A DNA stretch of 37,746 bases from a virus. Position numbers and translations under genes: made by a program. Positions within the stretch are counted from its first letter, which is position 1, and every line of letters starts with the position of its first letter. Below are positions 17,211 to 35,780 of the stretch, piece after piece. Below the pieces are notes generated by a model that was not told the DNA's origin, made no database searches, and worked only from the letters and a program-made list of their open reading frames with translations. Location of the stretch: positions 1 through 37,746 of the IMG/VR virus record IMGVR_UViG_3300003322_001034; one strand, written 5' to 3'.

Positions 17211-18170
17211 ATGGCCACAGGACCCCAGCGTTACCCGGGCGCCAGCACAGGCGCCGCCTGGTATCAGGACACCTACGGCGGCACCGCGATGGAGGTCAAC
17301 GTCGTCGTCCTCCACACCACCGAGGGCCGGACCCTCCCCGACTACGACGGCGGCGCGCTGGCACCGAACCTCACCGCGGTACCAGACTTCGCGGCGAAGA
17401 AGCTCCGCTGGTTCCAGCACTTCGACATCGACCGCTCCAGCCGCGCCCTGGTGAACCTCGCGGGCGGGGTGGAGACGAACACCCTCAACGTCTGCCAGGT
17501 CGAGCTTGTTGGCACCTGCGACCCGGCCACCCACAAGAAGTGGACGGCGGCCGGGCAGCAGCACGTCTACTGGCCGGAGGCCCCGGACTGGGCGCTCGCT
17601 GGCGTGGCTGACTTCCTGCGTTGGCTGCATGCCGAGCACGGGGTGCCGCTGTCCGGGCCGGCGAAGTGGCCGGCGTATCCCGGCTCTTACGGCAAGAGCA
17701 ACGGGGCCCGGATGACGGCCGAGCAGTGGCTCGCCTTCAAGGGGGTCTGCGGTCACCTCCACGTGGTCGAGAACGAGCACGGCGATCCGGGCGCCATCGA
17801 TTTCCCCAAGTTGATCGCCCTCGCGAAGGGCTCGACTGTCCCCGAGGAGGACGACGTGGCGCTCACGGACGCCGACATCACGAAGATCGCAACACGGGTG
17901 TTGACGCTGGACGGCGTCATCGACAACCCCAACCCGGCGACCGCGCCGGGCAATCCGTTCATCTCGCTGGAGACCGCGGTCCGCAACATCGAGACCATCG
18001 GCCGGCGCACGGAGGCGACGCTCACGGCGCAGGTGGGTGCGCTGTCGGCGGCGTTGGCGAAGCTCGCGGAGGGCGGCGGGCTGGATGCCGGGGAGATTCA
18101 GGCTGCGGCGGAGGCCGGGGCTCAGGCTGCGCTCGACCGTCTCGGCGACGCACTCACGAAGGAGAACTGA
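17211..18170 (+). CDS. Endolysin: N-acetylmuramoyl-L-alanine amidase
   Basis: 319 aa, ATG with AGGGAGGA upstream. Residues ~25-215 form an Amidase_2 domain: VVVLHTTEG supplies the first zinc His (His35), and GHLHVVENEHGDPGAIDF the later His and acidic ligand region, with WLAFKGVCGH before it. It should cleave the bond between muramic acid and the stem peptide. The C-terminal ~100 residues (LTDADITKIATRVLTLDG, then helical Ala-rich sequence) lack a known wall-binding fold and may oligomerise or target the wall. No signal peptide, so release depends on the holin downstream. First gene of the rightward lysis cassette. Confidence 0.9.
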   Translation: MATGPQRYPGASTGAAWYQDTYGGTAMEVNVVVLHTTEGRTLPDYDGGALAPNLTAVPDFAAKKLRWFQHFDIDRSSRALVNLAGGVETNTLNVCQVELVGTCDPATHKKWTAAGQQHVYWPEAPDWALAGVADFLRWLHAEHGVPLSGPAKWPAYPGSYGKSNGARMTAEQWLAFKGVCGHLHVVENEHGDPGAIDFPKLIALAKGSTVPEEDDVALTDADITKIATRVLTLDGVIDNPNPATAPGNPFISLETAVRNIETIGRRTEATLTAQVGALSAALAKLAEGGGLDAGEIQAAAEAGAQAALDRLGDALTKEN

Positions 18171-18736: not shown

Positions 18737-18997
18737 TTGGACTCCACCACCCTCGGCGCGGTCCTCGCGTGTGTCGGTGTTCTGTCCGGCTCGGTGGTGG
18801 CGTTCATCGGCAAGCGCGGCGAGTCGAAGAACTCGCTCACCGATCAGCTTCAGGAGGAGCTGACGTCGGAGCGGGCGGAGCGTAAGGCCGCGCAGGTTGA
18901 GGTCGAGGTGTTGCATCAGCGTCGGCGCGAGGATCTGGTTCGGATCACGCACCTTGAGATAGAGATCATTCGACTCGGAGGAACCCCACCCCCATGA
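18737..18997 (+). CDS. Single-span membrane protein with coiled coil (second holin or spanin-like)
   Basis: 86 aa, TTG start with AGGGAGG upstream. One N-terminal membrane segment (LGAVLACVGVLSGSVVAFIG) is followed by a basic turn and a long coiled coil (LQEELTSERAERKAAQVEVEV, then RITHLEIEIIRL). Similar proteins follow holins in many actinophages and are called holin-like or LysB-independent accessory factors; the exact job is unknown. Stop overlaps the next start (ATGA). Confidence 0.65.
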   Translation: MDSTTLGAVLACVGVLSGSVVAFIGKRGESKNSLTDQLQEELTSERAERKAAQVEVEVLHQRRREDLVRITHLEIEIIRLGGTPPP

Positions 18998-19650
18998 CCC
19001 GTGCGGAGCGGACGATCGTGCAGCACTGGCGCGGCCTCGCGACGGTGTGCGCGATCGTCGCTCTGTTTGGGATCGCGTTCATCCTGTGGCATCGGATCGA
19101 CACGTCGGACCGGAACTACAGGGATGCGGTGGCGGAGGCGGATCGGCGCGGGGATGCGGTGTCGACGCTGGCCGGTGATGTGCGGGCGTTGAGGGCGCAG
19201 GTGAAGGCGGCGGGGAAGACACCGGTCGCGCCTGACCCGTCGAAGGCGGTGGAGGGGTTGCCGGACCGGGCGCAGGTGCCGGTGCCGATCCCGGGCCAGC
19301 GCGGGGAGACAGGGCCCAAGGGTGAGCGTGGCGAGCCGGGCGCGTCCGGCGAACCGGGAGCGGACGGAAGCCCCGGGGCGAGCGGTGCGCCTGGCGTGCC
19401 GGGGGCTGATGGCGCACAGGGCCCGCAGGGTGTTCAGGGGGAGCGCGGCGAGAAGGGCGACACGGGGGAACAAGGCCCGAGGGGAGAGCCGGGCCCGGAC
19501 TGTCCGGATGGCTATCACCTGGAGGCTCCGTCGTGGGATCCGGACGCGTTGGTGTGCCGTCGGGATGGTGCGCCGCAGCCGGACGAGCCGGGCACCGGCG
19601 GGGCGCGGGCGGCTGGGGCGTTGGACCCTCGCCGCATCCAGTACGCGTAG
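18994..19650 (+). CDS. Membrane-anchored collagen-like protein
   Basis: 218 aa. Membrane segment at about residues 14-33 (GLATVCAIVALFGIAFILW), a coiled-coil-like stretch to residue 72, a Pro-rich linker, then 23 uninterrupted Gly-X-Y triplets (residues 101-169), followed by CPDGYHLEAPSW and a second Cys (170 and 188), and a Gly/Pro-rich tail. The repeats should form a collagen triple helix, held by the upstream coiled coil. Six triplets have Pro and two have Lys in the Y position, the position hydroxylated in collagen. Last gene of the lysis cassette, so it could be an outer-facing membrane or wall-spanning lysis factor; role unproven. Confidence 0.8.
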   Translation: MTRAERTIVQHWRGLATVCAIVALFGIAFILWHRIDTSDRNYRDAVAEADRRGDAVSTLAGDVRALRAQVKAAGKTPVAPDPSKAVEGLPDRAQVPVPIPGQRGETGPKGERGEPGASGEPGADGSPGASGAPGVPGADGAQGPQGVQGERGEKGDTGEQGPRGEPGPDCPDGYHLEAPSWDPDALVCRRDGAPQPDEPGTGGARAAGALDPRRIQYA

Positions 19651-19697
19651 GCTGGTGTGTGATGGAGCACCGCCTGCCCGATCAGCGGGTGGTCCAA

Positions 19698-19749
19698 GGG
19701 CGCCCGCGCGAACCCCGTGCTCCCGGGCTGGGTTGAACCCTGGGCGCCC
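19698..19749 (+). other. Long hairpin downstream of the lysis cassette
   Basis: GGGCGCCC occurs at 19698-19705 and 19742-19749 and is self-complementary, so the two copies pair; inside them AACCC (19711-19715) pairs with GGGTT (19730-19734). Together they make a two-tier hairpin just after the collagen-like gene and just before the terminator. It could protect the transcript end or be the first domain of the structured region that follows. Confidence 0.5.
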
Positions 19750-19758
19750 GCCAAACCC

Positions 19759-19781
19759 ACCCCGTCCCTTGTGGGCGGGGT
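19759..19781 (+). terminator. Terminator of the lysis operon
   Basis: ACCCCG and CCC (bulged T between) pair with GGG and CGGGGT around a TTGT loop; AAACCC before and TTTCTCT after give a factor-independent form in the rightward direction. It lies 109 bases past the last lysis gene. Confidence 0.65.
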
Positions 19782-19800
19782 TTCTCTATCTGGCATGCTG

Positions 19801-20269
19801 AGGACACGGCATCCGGGTGCGACGCCCGGTGCGGGACACCAGTCCTAGGTGCACTGTCCTGCGAAGAGCCCACCTTCCGGCCGGAGGACCGGGACTCTTG
19901 TGCCGCCCTTTGATGTCCCGGTCGGTCCTGCCGCTCTCCCGCAAAGTGGTGCACCCGGCAGAGTGCCCCGGGATGCGGTATCCGTGAGGACCGTGGCGGC
20001 CGGGCGGGGTACCCAACGCCCGGCCGATCAGCCCCCGGCTGTGGCATCCTGGTCGCGGCAACGCCCGTCTGCTTGCGGGAAACCCAGGCACCCGGTTGGC
20101 TCCGGTGGATAGCCGGGCGGGCCACTGGCAGTGCGGCGTCCCGGGGACGTCGTCCGATCGGCTGCCGCGCACCGGAGTCGCGACCCGGCGCATCGCCTTC
20201 CGCCCGTTCTCTTCGTTGAGGACGGGCGGTCGTGCGTGCGACGGCAGGAAACCTTGCGCGAGTCCGCAA
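19801..20269. ncRNA. Candidate large structured RNA, strand uncertain
   Basis: No convincing gene lies between 19651 and 20311. Instead there is a near-continuous set of exact stems: AGGACA/TGTCCT (19801-19806, 19855-19860) enclosing two hairpins; AAGAG/CTCTT (19864-19868, 19895-19899); TCCCGG/CCGGGA (19916-19921, 19968-19973) enclosing CTGCC/GGCAG; GGCCGGGCG/CGCCCGGCC (19998-20006, 20017-20025); CAGCC/GGCTG; CCTGG/CCAGG (20048-20052, 20084-20088); GGCAG/CTGCC (20127-20131, 20162-20166) enclosing CGTCC/GGACG; CCGCCCGT/ACGGGCGG (20200-20207, 20222-20229); TTGCG/CGCAA (20254-20258, 20265-20269). Nested stems around internal hairpins look like folded RNA. It does not match tRNA, tmRNA or RNase P landmarks that I know. 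Long leftward open frames here have unprotein-like composition. High GC inflates chance stems, so a covariation test is needed. Confidence 0.5.
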
Positions 20270-20311
20270 AGTAACGTCCTGACCTGGGTTTTCACGGGCC
20301 TCCGTAAGAAC

Positions 20312-20491
20312 CTACGCCGCCTCGACGATCTTGGCCCGTACCGCCGCCGCCCACTCCTCGATGAGCCGCTCGTACTCGGCCCGATCCTCCCCGTACAACC
20401 AGCCCCCGGCCCGGGTGACGAGCTGACGGATGTCCTCGTTCACGACCGCAGCAGAGCGCGGCAGGCCAGGGGCCGAAGAGGAGGGGGACAT
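20312..20491 (-). CDS. Small acidic helical protein (59 aa)
   Basis: ATG at 20491 with only a weak GGGGGC upstream. The N-terminus is Ser/Pro-rich, then VNEDIRQLVTRAGGWLYGED and RAEYERLIEEWAAAVRAKIV form a helical domain. Lies 34 bases after the flavoprotein gene in the same direction, probably in one operon with it and the XRE/TPR regulator. Similar small proteins occur beside regulators in Streptomyces chromosomes. Function unknown. Confidence 0.6.
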   Translation of the reverse strand: MSPSSSAPGLPRSAAVVNEDIRQLVTRAGGWLYGEDRAEYERLIEEWAAAVRAKIVEAA

Positions 20492-20525
20492 GCCCCCAAT
20501 TCTAGTGACCCAGACGCCCGACCAC

Positions 20526-21071
20526 TCACGCCGTACCAGCCACGATCCGCCGCACCCCCGCCAGCGCGTGCCCCCACGGATACGCCTTCGGGTCACCCTG
20601 CTTTGGCGGATGCGACTCATACCCGTCCGGCCCGTCGAGAACCAGGACGCCTTGCTCCCGCAGCGCCGCCACCGACCGGGCCACCGCGGGTTGCGCACCC
20701 TGCGCCCGGTTGAAGTACGGCATCGCCACCACCGGCACACCCATGTGCACAGCCTCCGACGGCAGACCGATCGCAAGCGTGTCACTGATGCCGGAGCCCC
20801 ACTTGTTCAGCGTCGTGCACGACATCGGCGCCACCAGCATCGCCGTCGCCTTCGGCAACTGGTCCTTCTCCCACGGCAGCTTGTACTGCGACCGCACCGG
20901 ATACCCGGTCAGGTCGACCAGCTCGCGCATGCGCGGCTCCCACCAACGCGCCGCCGACGGCGTCAAGATGAGGCACACCTCCCACCCGTCGGCCTGCGCG
21001 GCGCGCACGCCATCGTCGACGTACTGGGTGGGGCCCGCGGCGCAGGCGATGAGATACAGGACTCGAGTCAT
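20526..21071 (-). CDS. Flavoprotein (PPC decarboxylase-like fold)
   Basis: 181 aa, ATG in ATGA overlap with the upstream regulator. VLYLIACAAGPTQYVDDG opens a flavodoxin-like fold; ATAMLVAPMSCTTLNKWGSGI and GLPSEAVHMGVPVVAMPYFN match the flavin-binding and substrate segments of the flavoprotein family that includes phosphopantothenoylcysteine decarboxylase and lantibiotic decarboxylases. It lacks the synthetase half of CoaBC. Probable FMN protein; substrate unknown. Paired with an XRE/TPR regulator, an arrangement I recall from Streptomyces chromosomes and unusual for a phage. Confidence 0.75.
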   Translation of the reverse strand: MTRVLYLIACAAGPTQYVDDGVRAAQADGWEVCLILTPSAARWWEPRMRELVDLTGYPVRSQYKLPWEKDQLPKATAMLVAPMSCTTLNKWGSGISDTLAIGLPSEAVHMGVPVVAMPYFNRAQGAQPAVARSVAALREQGVLVLDGPDGYESHPPKQGDPKAYPWGHALAGVRRIVAGTA

Positions 21072-22282
21072 GCCTGGAGTCCACAACGCTCAGCCAGCGC
21101 ACGCAACTCACCTGAAGGCACAGGCGTCGCACCCACCACGTCCTTCACGAGATTCACCGTGTCCGGCCTGCCACACACATCCTCCGGCGCCAGCCGCTCG
21201 GCCTCCAACAACGCCGTCGCAGCATCGTCCTTACGCCGCGTCAAGAGCGAAGCGCGTGCCATCCCAACCAGATGCCCCGCTTGCCGCTCCCGCGACAAAC
21301 CGGCGAGCGCGTCCGCCTCGAGACTGTCCGCGGCCTCGAGCGCCGACCAGCCGTCCTCGAACCGGATCAGCATGTCCACCCGGTGCAGCACCACGTTCGT
21401 CGGCCCGAACTGGGTGTAGTCCTCGTCCATGTCCGCGCCCTGCCGGTCGGCGACCTCGCCGGCCTCGTCGACGTAGTTCGTCGCTGCGTGAACGCGGGCG
21501 GTGGTGCGCTCCTGCGACGACGCGGCCAGCGCGGCGGACAGGTACAGCATCCCCAGCGTGGACAACCCGAGCGGCCCCTGCTCGACGAGGCCATCCTCGA
21601 GGCGCCGCGCGGCGGTGGTCGCGAACTCGACAGCGGCTTCGGGGCGTTGCTGGTAGACGAGGCTCTTGGCGACCCGGCGTGCGGCGGCACCGATCTGGAC
21701 GGGGTCGCCGGAGCGTTCGGCGGCGACGAGGGCACGGTCCGCGGCGAGGGCGGCCTGGATCGCCGTGGCTGGCCCGTACTTGTGCAGGTACGAGGTGACG
21801 AGCTGGTACACGCGGGAGAGCAGGGCGTGCGCCTCGCACTCCGCGGTGGCCGGCGCGGCGTGTGCGGCCTGCCCGGCGCCGATGATGAGGGCGGGCAACT
21901 CGCGGGCGAGGGTGGTGTAGTGGCAGGCCTGGAACGCCTCGCAGCAGTAGGTGAGCCGTCTGCGCAGTATGGACAGGGCGGGCGGGTCGGTGTCGGGTGC
22001 CGGGCTGTAGAGGGCGTCGATGACGGCGAGGGCTTCGGCGGGGGGCCTGCTGCCCGCAGAGGGTGCGGGCGGGCTGTCGGTCAAGAGGTGCTCCAGGGGG
22101 ACGCGCAGTACGTCGGCCGCGCGCACGAGCACTGACAGGCGCGGGTCCTGTTGCCGCTTGCCGCCCTCGAGGTCCTGTACCCAGCGTTTCGTCTGCCCCA
22201 TGAGGCGGCCGAAGTCGGTCTGCGTGAGCGCCCGCCGGTCCCGCCAGTAGGCGATACGTCGGCCGATGCCTGAAGTGTCCAC
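21068..22282 (-). CDS. XRE-family regulator with TPR-like C-terminal domain
   Basis: 404 aa from the GTG at 22282; an ATG at 22351 is open but would place the palindrome at 22300-22318 inside the gene. Residues ~5-65 are an HTH_XRE domain (RRIAYWRDRRALTQTDFGRLMG, KRWVQDLEGGKRQ). The rest is helical repeat sequence (ARRVAKSLVYQQRPEAAVEF, ATNYVDEAGEVADRQGAD) typical of TPR-containing Streptomyces regulators, which may sense a peptide or small molecule. Stop overlaps the flavoprotein start, so regulator and enzyme are co-translated. Confidence 0.8.
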   Translation of the reverse strand: MDTSGIGRRIAYWRDRRALTQTDFGRLMGQTKRWVQDLEGGKRQQDPRLSVLVRAADVLRVPLEHLLTDSPPAPSAGSRPPAEALAVIDALYSPAPDTDPPALSILRRRLTYCCEAFQACHYTTLARELPALIIGAGQAAHAAPATAECEAHALLSRVYQLVTSYLHKYGPATAIQAALAADRALVAAERSGDPVQIGAAARRVAKSLVYQQRPEAAVEFATTAARRLEDGLVEQGPLGLSTLGMLYLSAALAASSQERTTARVHAATNYVDEAGEVADRQGADMDEDYTQFGPTNVVLHRVDMLIRFEDGWSALEAADSLEADALAGLSRERQAGHLVGMARASLLTRRKDDAATALLEAERLAPEDVCGRPDTVNLVKDVVGATPVPSGELRALAERCGLQA

Positions 22283-23225: not shown

Positions 23226-23660
23226 TCTTGGAATCTGGGGCACACGGTAGATATATGCATCTAGCATTGACCAGAACTGAACAGCGAGTCACCAGAGCAC
23301 ACCCCGTGTGACCGGAGTGCAGAAACGCACCCCGCACACGCACTCGCGCCCCCGCGCACGCTCGCCTGAGATGGAAGAGCCCACCCCCCTCAACAGCCCG
23401 GCCGCGCCCAGAACCCGCGCGCGCCGGACGGCCGCCCGCCTGCCGCAGGTTCACGCCCAGCGTGAGCACCCCCCTACGTGCAGGCGGGCGGTCCGAACAG
23501 ACTCCTCCACTCGGTGCGCAATTCATACACAAAGTCTTCAAATTCTCGAAAGCACCTGCCCGTGACATGTGCCAGATGCGATCGTTAGATCAGATGGCTA
23601 GGGCGGGGGTGGTCCTACCCTCCAGGTGGAGCCCCCGCCCTGGTCCGAAGCGCCGACACA
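23226..23660. other. Intergenic region without a supported gene
   Basis: No open frame has protein-like composition or a plausible start. It contains an AT-rich spot with TAGAT-N6-ATCTA (23248-23263), a Pro/Arg-coding-like GC-rich stretch that is probably non-coding, a short AT-rich segment near 23520-23560, and a stem AGGGCGGGGG/CCCCCGCCCT (23600-23609, 23632-23641). It may hold promoters and the left arm of attP. Confidence 0.5.
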
Positions 23661-23700
23661 CGAAAGGCCCCCGCGGACCTGAAGCCGCGGGGGCCTTTCG
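23661..23700. terminator. Strong bidirectional terminator
   Basis: CGAAAGGCCCCCGCGG (23661-23676) pairs perfectly with 23685-23700 over 16 bases around an 8-base loop. It lies beyond the integrase stop and the uppP-like segment, so it can end integrase transcripts and, after integration, may serve the host gene. Confidence 0.8.
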
Positions 23701-34886: not shown

Positions 34887-35780
34887 GTGAGAATCCGGCG
34901 CAGCAGGCTGACAGGGGACTTCCTTCAAGTCCCCAACGCCACCGTGCGGGACGACCGGCTCAGCCACATGGCGCGCGGCATCCTCGCCGAACTCCTGAGC
35001 CGGCCCGACGGATGGGAAGCCACTGCCGACAGCATGTGGCAGGCCTCGGTCGCCAAGCACGGCAAGGACAGCCCCGGCCGTCGCGCCTTCCGTGCCGCCT
35101 TCGCCGAGCTCAAAGAGCACGGCTACCTCTCCGCCGGGAAAGACGCCCTCCCCGGCGGCCGGTACGGCACCGTCCTCACCCTCACCGACGTACCGCCCTG
35201 TGGTACGTCGGAGCGACCTGGGGAAACAGGCGAAACCGCAGGTCGCACCGACGTGCCACACGCTGGTACGTCGGAGGGCGGCTCCGACGTACCACCTGCC
35301 GGTACGTCGGCCCCACCAGGGGAAACAGCCGTTCCCGCAGGTCGCACCGACGTACCGCTTTCCGACGTACCACCGTGTGGCACGTCTAAAGAAGAAAACG
35401 GTGGGACGAACACGGGAAAGAAGAAGACTCTCTCTTCCGTCACTGGCGCCTCGCGAGACGACGCACACCTCACCGCCTTCGGCGCCTTCTGGTCCAACTA
35501 CCCGAAGAAACGCGACCGCGAGGAAGCCAAGAAGGCCTGGATCGCCGCCATCGAACGCGGCGTAGAGCCCAAGCGCATGGTCGACGCCGCCCAGGCCTAC
35601 GCCCGAGACCGCGCCGGCCAAGACCCCAAGTACACGAAGTACCCCGCCACTTGGCTCAACAAGGGCTGCTACGACGACGAACCCGACCCACAGCCCGGCC
35701 CCCAACTCCGAGCCGTCCCCGGCGGCTACCAGCCCTACCGCGACCCCGCCGACCAATCCATCTACGACAAGGACCTCTGA
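34887..35780 (+). CDS. Replication initiator / replisome organiser (lambda O-like layout)
   Basis: 297 aa, GTG with GAGAAGAG upstream; longer in-frame starts lack ribosome sites. Residues ~5-100 are a winged helix (RDDRLSHMARGILAELLSRP, then FAELKEHGYLS). Residues ~100-170 are a linker of DVPPxGTS repeats encoded by the iteron array (35185-35388). Residues ~190-270 are a C-terminal domain common in phage replication proteins (AFGAFWSNYPKKRDREEAKK, then TKYPATWLNKGCYDDE). Like lambda O, the origin seems to lie inside the gene, with N-terminal DNA binding and C-terminal recruitment of the loader/helicase encoded next. Stop overlaps the loader start (TGATG). Confidence 0.75.
   Translation: MRIRRSRLTGDFLQVPNATVRDDRLSHMARGILAELLSRPDGWEATADSMWQASVAKHGKDSPGRRAFRAAFAELKEHGYLSAGKDALPGGRYGTVLTLTDVPPCGTSERPGETGETAGRTDVPHAGTSEGGSDVPPAGTSAPPGETAVPAGRTDVPLSDVPPCGTSKEENGGTNTGKKKTLSSVTGASRDDAHLTAFGAFWSNYPKKRDREEAKKAWIAAIERGVEPKRMVDAAQAYARDRAGQDPKYTKYPATWLNKGCYDDEPDPQPGPQLRAVPGGYQPYRDPADQSIYDKDL
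35185..35388. repeat. Iteron array, candidate replication origin
   Basis: Nine copies of CCGACGTACC or its complement. They form four inverted pairs, each 10 bases-N7-10 bases: 35185-35211, 35248-35274, 35284-35310, 35362-35388, plus a single site at 35347-35356. Unit starts are spaced 63, 36, 63 and 15 bases, and the sequence between pairs 1-2 and 3-4 is itself repeated (GGGGAAACAG, GCAGGTCGCACCGACGT). Some copies have single changes (GTGCC, GGCACGTCT). Directly after comes an A-rich stretch (35386-35440), a likely unwinding element. Inside the initiator gene, as in lambda. Confidence 0.75.

Follow-up and report, generated by a model that had tools for sequence, protein, structure and literature searches.

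What does a temperate phage carry in a stretch of DNA that is full of stems and seems to lack genes? The question is raised by positions 19651-20311 (661 bases) of a 37.7-kb IMG/VR virus record from a Streptomyces-type phage, analysed over its whole length of 37,746 nucleotides (the window), for which a preliminary description had suggested a single large RNA in the manner of GOLLD and ROOL. That the gap is gene-free and packed with stems, as was described at that time, was borne out in coordinates and in the stems themselves; none of its ORFs displays the codon-position GC (GC3) signature of the window's real genes or matches Pfam, and the protein-coding reading was rejected on these grounds. 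Folding of the entire region compared with dinucleotide shuffles gave z −3.0 for the + strand and −5.5 for the − strand (0 of 20 shuffles as good), the largest single contribution to this excess being made by the terminator hairpin closing the array (z −5.8). The shuffle comparison thus favours the region as a whole, while the general GC-richness leaves individual RNAs a margin of only about 1 s.d. over shuffles. Folding energy was therefore discarded as proof of individual RNAs, proof of structure being given by covariation, and comparison with relatives was required. This comparison splits the gap, which is real and non-coding, into separate predicted small RNA genes of the + strand (Table 1), and an array of such genes is very probably what the region is.

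Table 1. Predicted and annotated features of the RNA array and its flanks (window coordinates)
Feature	Position	Strand	Basis
Endolysin-like gene, late operon	17211-18170		Clusters with relatives
Holin gene, late operon	18401-18727		Matches holin PHROGs
Collagen-like phage protein, upstream flank, last late-operon gene	18994-19650	+	Pfam PF01391
Accessory cassette ("moron") with RNA array; absent in L213	19647-20309	+	blastn
Candidate −10 TAGGCT, overlapping the stop codon of the collagen-like gene	19648-19653	+	Sequence, same motif class; no homologue
Candidate hairpin RNA	19660-19728	+	Single-sequence fold; no homologue found
Terminator hairpin closing the late (lysis/collagen) operon	19753-19784	+	Fold; 94% identity over 33 nt to terminator-like stretch in L134
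Putative −10 element CATGCT of RNA A	19794-19799	+	Conserved promoter-like motif, similar distance
RNA A, four-way junction	19806-19908	+	P1 CGGCA/TGCCG; T-loop-like arm CCGGG-TGCGACG-CCCGG; two more hairpins
Hairpin element D	19911-19981	+	Single-sequence fold; one copy, no clear homologue
Perfect 10-bp hairpin, terminator-like without T run	19997-20026	+	Inverted repeat, fold
Putative −10 element CATCCT of B+C transcript	20045-20050	+	Promoter-like motif
RNA B, ~70-nt three-way junction (P1, GAAA-capped P2, P3)	20056-20125	+	Covariance model R1; 28 aligned copies
RNA C, hairpin GGCGTCC/GGACGTC within closing stem GGCAG/CTGCC	20126-20172	+	Compensating inner-stem changes
B+C terminator hairpin (CCGCCCGTTCTC/GAGGACGGGCGG)	20200-20229	+	z −5.8; aligned with hairpins in L127, L132
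~60-aa ORF, downstream flank, convergent	20312-20494	−	DNA conserved in L003, L005, L006, L210-L214
Flavoprotein, downstream flank	20526-21086	−	Pfam PF02441; 7 viral relatives

On seven IMG/VR contigs there is a gene for a related flavoprotein; two of these contigs have the window's block 20062-20123 (about 60 nt) and a third has the block 19789-19829. Pattern searches revealed further copies in viral contigs and in Kitasatospora mediocidica, Actinomadura sp. WMMA1423 and Streptomyces africanus, the remaining genome matches being dismissed as chance; most exact-pattern matches in genome contigs and most GGCATCCGGGTGCGA matches were fortuitous ones within coding DNA. The INPHARED phages contain no match to the window region or to two of the relative arrays, and relatives (L numbers) were therefore taken from IMG/VR, genome and plasmid collections. 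Among them RNA B turned out to be the best documented. Eight copies align as a P1 of about 10 bp, a GAAA-capped P2 hairpin and a short P3, with two-sided changes at 7 of 22 pairs (0 of 500 shuffles), and the covariance model R1 built from these eight, the window copy among them, returns RNA B in the window at 73.4 bits (E 1e-14), the next-best place scoring 16 bits. This model matched 11 of 393 Streptomyces genomes at E<=0.01, so that most hosts and phages live without RNA B; it also matched 2 of 150 genomes of the Kitasatospora family and 4 of 201 of Actinomadura's order. A class-wide set of 395 genomes gave 3 matches, of which two had been counted in the earlier sets. The weakest Streptomyces match (L136, E 0.0015) is probably due to chance and was left out. 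BLAST added plasmid pSLE1 of the S. leeuwenhoekii type strain, which is syntenic with plasmid-phage pZL12 (PMC4487206), and a K. papulosa plasmid. The established distribution of RNA B thus encompasses phages, prophages and phage-plasmids of Streptomyces, Kitasatospora and Actinomadura, from at least two actinobacterial orders, and in several relatives tail, endolysin, holin or integrase genes lie upstream of RNA B.

The covariation looked for since the preliminary description is present in RNA B on the + strand: in the alignment of 28 copies, fitted to the model and including some copies close to one another, pairing holds in 92% of cells, two-sided compensatory changes are found at 14 of 23 pairs, and the covariation score reaches 0.359 versus 0.141 in shuffled alignments, with 0 of 500 shuffles equalling it on any measure and with values far above slid controls. 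U-G and G-U pairs are common in P1 and P2 (18 of 28 copies at one P1 position), and since they would become A-C mismatches on the opposite strand, they fix the strand as +, the structure being established by the covariation. The window's own copy has the three outer P1 pairs of the model broken or non-standard. The defining features of the family, namely the three-way junction, the covarying P1 and P2, the GAAA-type loop and the conserved GUCUGCC..GGCACCCGG core, are borne out by the window's score of 73.4 bits and by the 28-copy alignment. As judged from alignment, RNA B is a predicted new RNA family within a known general kind, namely phage structured ncRNAs lacking known function. No account of these RNAs was found in Rfam or in the open-access literature searched. 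Rfam 15, applied to the window and its relatives at gathering score and in further searches at relaxed thresholds, returned no family except tRNA genes in relatives, in agreement with the initial statement that the region could not be matched to a named class.

Of RNA A three copies are known. L008 and L021 keep its P1 and T-loop-like arm (CCGGG-TGCGAnn-CCCGG) almost unchanged, and the remaining two arms, wholly different in sequence, still form hairpins; a search with the T-loop pattern in 393 Streptomyces genomes gave no additional copies. One long stem proposed earlier, AGGACA/TGTCCT enclosing two hairpins, has both its halves in place (19801 and 19855) but gained no support from homologues, according to which TGTCCT pairs with GGGACA inside RNA A, and it was rejected. 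Another proposed nesting, GGCAG 20127/CTGCC 20162 around CGTCC 20137/GGACG 20145, is present as described and corresponds to RNA C, known in four copies that follow RNA B (the window, L014, L127 and L132) and having inner stems that differ and still pair (GGCGTCC/GGACGTC, GGCACCC/GGGTGTC, GGCGCC/GGCGCC). The recurrent GAGGAC does exist in four copies (19800, 19884, 19986 and 20218), which fall in four unrelated structural contexts and do not make one motif; in the whole window this hexamer is mildly over-represented (53 versus 36 expected).

Further modules were met only in relatives: E (GGGCTGAACCCGCC..GGCGGGGTAGRCCC), F, G (a GNRA-capped hairpin with weak covariation) and H. Their order is A-D-B-C in the window, A-E in L008, tRNA-B-C in L014, tRNA-B-E in L006, F-B-C in L127, H-B-G in L137 and B-G in L016, and RNA B stands alone in L013 and L005. 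Modularity is thereby established and constitutes the unusual part of the finding, and the proposal of one large RNA does not hold: separate blocks (A; B; B+C), made of units of about 50-105 nt, occur in differing combinations and with promoter-like elements of their own. E modules of L006, L008 and L011 and H modules of L011, L137, L183 and L184 have in common the pattern CTGAAC...GTAGGC in the internal loop that separates two stems, which may be a shared motif of the protein-binding or loop-E-like sort.

Hexamers of the type YANNNT start 10-17 nt upstream of 18 of the 22 array-opening units, which are not fully independent, against a background of 7%; in L131 and L164 a TTGACT box with a TANNNT-type hexamer directly precedes RNA B. 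Terminators close several arrays. Elsewhere in the window, two back-to-back GC-rich hairpins at 23600-23700, the second followed by TTTCG, are probable terminators, and very strong repeats and palindromes at 35200-35380 (GGTACGTCGG / CCGACGTACC and two copies of CTGGGGAAACAG..GCAGGTCGCACCGACGT; fold z −9) precede a gene for an IstB/DnaC-like helicase loader by about 300 bp and form a candidate replication origin.

The array is situated between the end of the late operon and a convergent trio encoding the ~60-aa ORF, a flavoprotein and an HTH protein. By blastn, the window up to 19646 corresponds to L213 up to 9288 and resumes at 20310 with L213 from 9292; the flanking genes meet directly there, with the entire region missing, and the 660 bp may therefore be regarded as accessory moron cargo. 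Judging from the sequence, the whole gap is an insertion relative to L213 or else a deletion in L213. In L210, L211 and L214 the same slot is occupied by protein genes, with the same promoter-like motif used in L211 (GTCTGCCATCCTGAGGGC). The slot is thus established as variable, being empty, protein-filled or RNA-filled, which is the anatomy of moron cargo in a temperate phage, here with predicted RNA genes as its content. In L003 the slot upstream of the ~60-aa ORF contains promoter-like GGCTACCCTCTTCG and then unrelated GC-rich, probably structured sequence. A conserved ORF of about 75 aa without known family is found in divergent orientation some 90-160 bp upstream of the RNA array in L005, L006, L008, L014 and L147.

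A minority of RNA B copies have a tRNA neighbour. A tRNA-Met gene directly abuts RNA B on the 5′ side in L006 and L014, and in two Actinomadura prophages this place is taken by a tRNA-like gene (L153:10067-10138, −; L154:9928-9999, +) with full acceptor, D and T arms (Rfam tRNA, 38 bits) and an anticodon-arm loop of only 4 nt (GTTG), hence a tRNA-like RNA without anticodon. Anticodon-less tRNA-like genes also stand directly before RNA B in L015 and L209. In the window region, ARAGORN and Rfam gave no tRNA or tmRNA match. Such neighbourhood suggests a link of RNA B to tRNA or translation.

The explanation that we favour with moderate confidence is that a cargo cassette of small independent ncRNA genes fills a variable slot where the phage's late operon ends. 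Reading would proceed rightwards through several independently folded RNAs, namely RNA A and a B+C unit bounded by the promoter at 20045 and the terminator at 20229; as the putative promoters resemble host sigma-70-type ones, we infer that transcription probably takes place in the prophage state and also in the course of infection. The likeliest role of RNA B would then be that of a trans-acting decoy or scaffold which binds some protein or RNA machine of the host, with tRNA mimicry as a possible means. For this mode of action the chances appear about even, whereas tRNA or the translation machinery as target is speculative and rather unlikely. Among competing explanations the likeliest, though improbable, is that the prophage moron encodes regulatory sRNAs which, like AgvB and AsxR, base-pair with sRNAs or mRNAs of the host. 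Its genomic logic is the same, with genes for small RNAs occupying a temperate phage's moron slot, but AgvB needs Hfq and an exposed seed (PMC4104026), while RNA B has stems conserved as well as loops, almost no exposed single-stranded stretch and no obvious seed; because RNA B is closed, stem-conserved and lacks an exposed seed, we prefer protein binding or a decoy role to antisense pairing. It is very unlikely that the inverted repeats work as DNA, in a replication or transfer origin or a recombination or packaging site: they are GC-rich, several carriers are plasmid-like (pSLE1 for instance) and an integrase is sometimes near, but U-G pairs are retained in one orientation only, the structure is flanked by a promoter-like element and a terminator, and the cassette is missing from a relative. 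A mere chain of terminators and attenuators between convergent operons, as the two strong terminator-like hairpins (19753-19784 and 20200-20229) might suggest, is most unlikely, given that RNAs A and B are multi-branched, retain both sequence and structure among their copies (in the case of B across actinobacterial orders) and start at promoter-like elements. Finally, a single large and ornate RNA akin to GOLLD or ROOL over about 19800-20270 is extremely unlikely, being recommended by its total size, phage setting, whole-region fold and the tRNA-Met neighbours of some relatives (GOLLD env-38 lies downstream of a Met-tRNA; PMC12286853) and already disfavoured by blocks conserved separately and shuffled, promoter-like elements inside, RNA B standing alone and the lack of an Rfam match.

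Returning to the cargo cassette, its array design, in which genes for small RNAs are exchanged as cargo next to tRNA genes, suggests that phages gather RNA parts as they do accessory proteins, and bears on the open question of the role of phage RNAs without known function. RNA B is directly testable owing to its strong covariation, its presence in at least two orders and its location on a sequenced type-strain plasmid, pSLE1, where it is the only module. One might further conjecture, at long odds, that temperate phages and phage-plasmids of actinobacteria carry interchangeable cassettes of small structured RNAs (modules A-H), every module a gene of its own, as decoys or mimics directed against host RNA or translation machinery, for instance tRNA-directed defences; if true, these would be an RNA counterpart of shuffled accessory-protein islands.

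Several known systems offer points of comparison. Phage T4 produces stable RNAs C and D, small, of open function and transcribed together with phage tRNAs in the tRNA cluster; they come from a different phage group and are likened to this array by description only. The pRNA of phi29 is a small packaging RNA built around a three-way junction, and RNA B is also a small phage RNA of this shape, but it has no Rfam match, is accessory cargo absent from relatives of this phage, and belongs to siphovirus-type tail-gene phages. GOLLD and ROOL resemble the array as structured RNAs of open function that phages and prophages carry, in many cases close to tRNA genes (PMC12286853). The similarity of setting claimed initially is borne out in part: the window is phage DNA but has no tRNA of its own, and RNA B has a tRNA or tRNA-like neighbour in L006, L014, L153 and L154. 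In the size of its units the array differs, since GOLLD and ROOL are single RNAs of about 600-800 nt or more with their own Rfam models (PMC12286853), which gave no match in the window at gathering or relaxed E-value thresholds, and in place of one continuous RNA of about 600 nt or more there are units of about 50-105 nt in shuffled arrays, conserved separately. The closest working precedent, by analogy, is provided by the lambdoid moron anti-sRNAs AgvB and AsxR, likewise small RNA genes carried as cargo by temperate phages, which at 51-60 nt are Hfq-bound and expose a seed, while RNA B would act as a closed three-way junction without a comparable one (PMC4104026).
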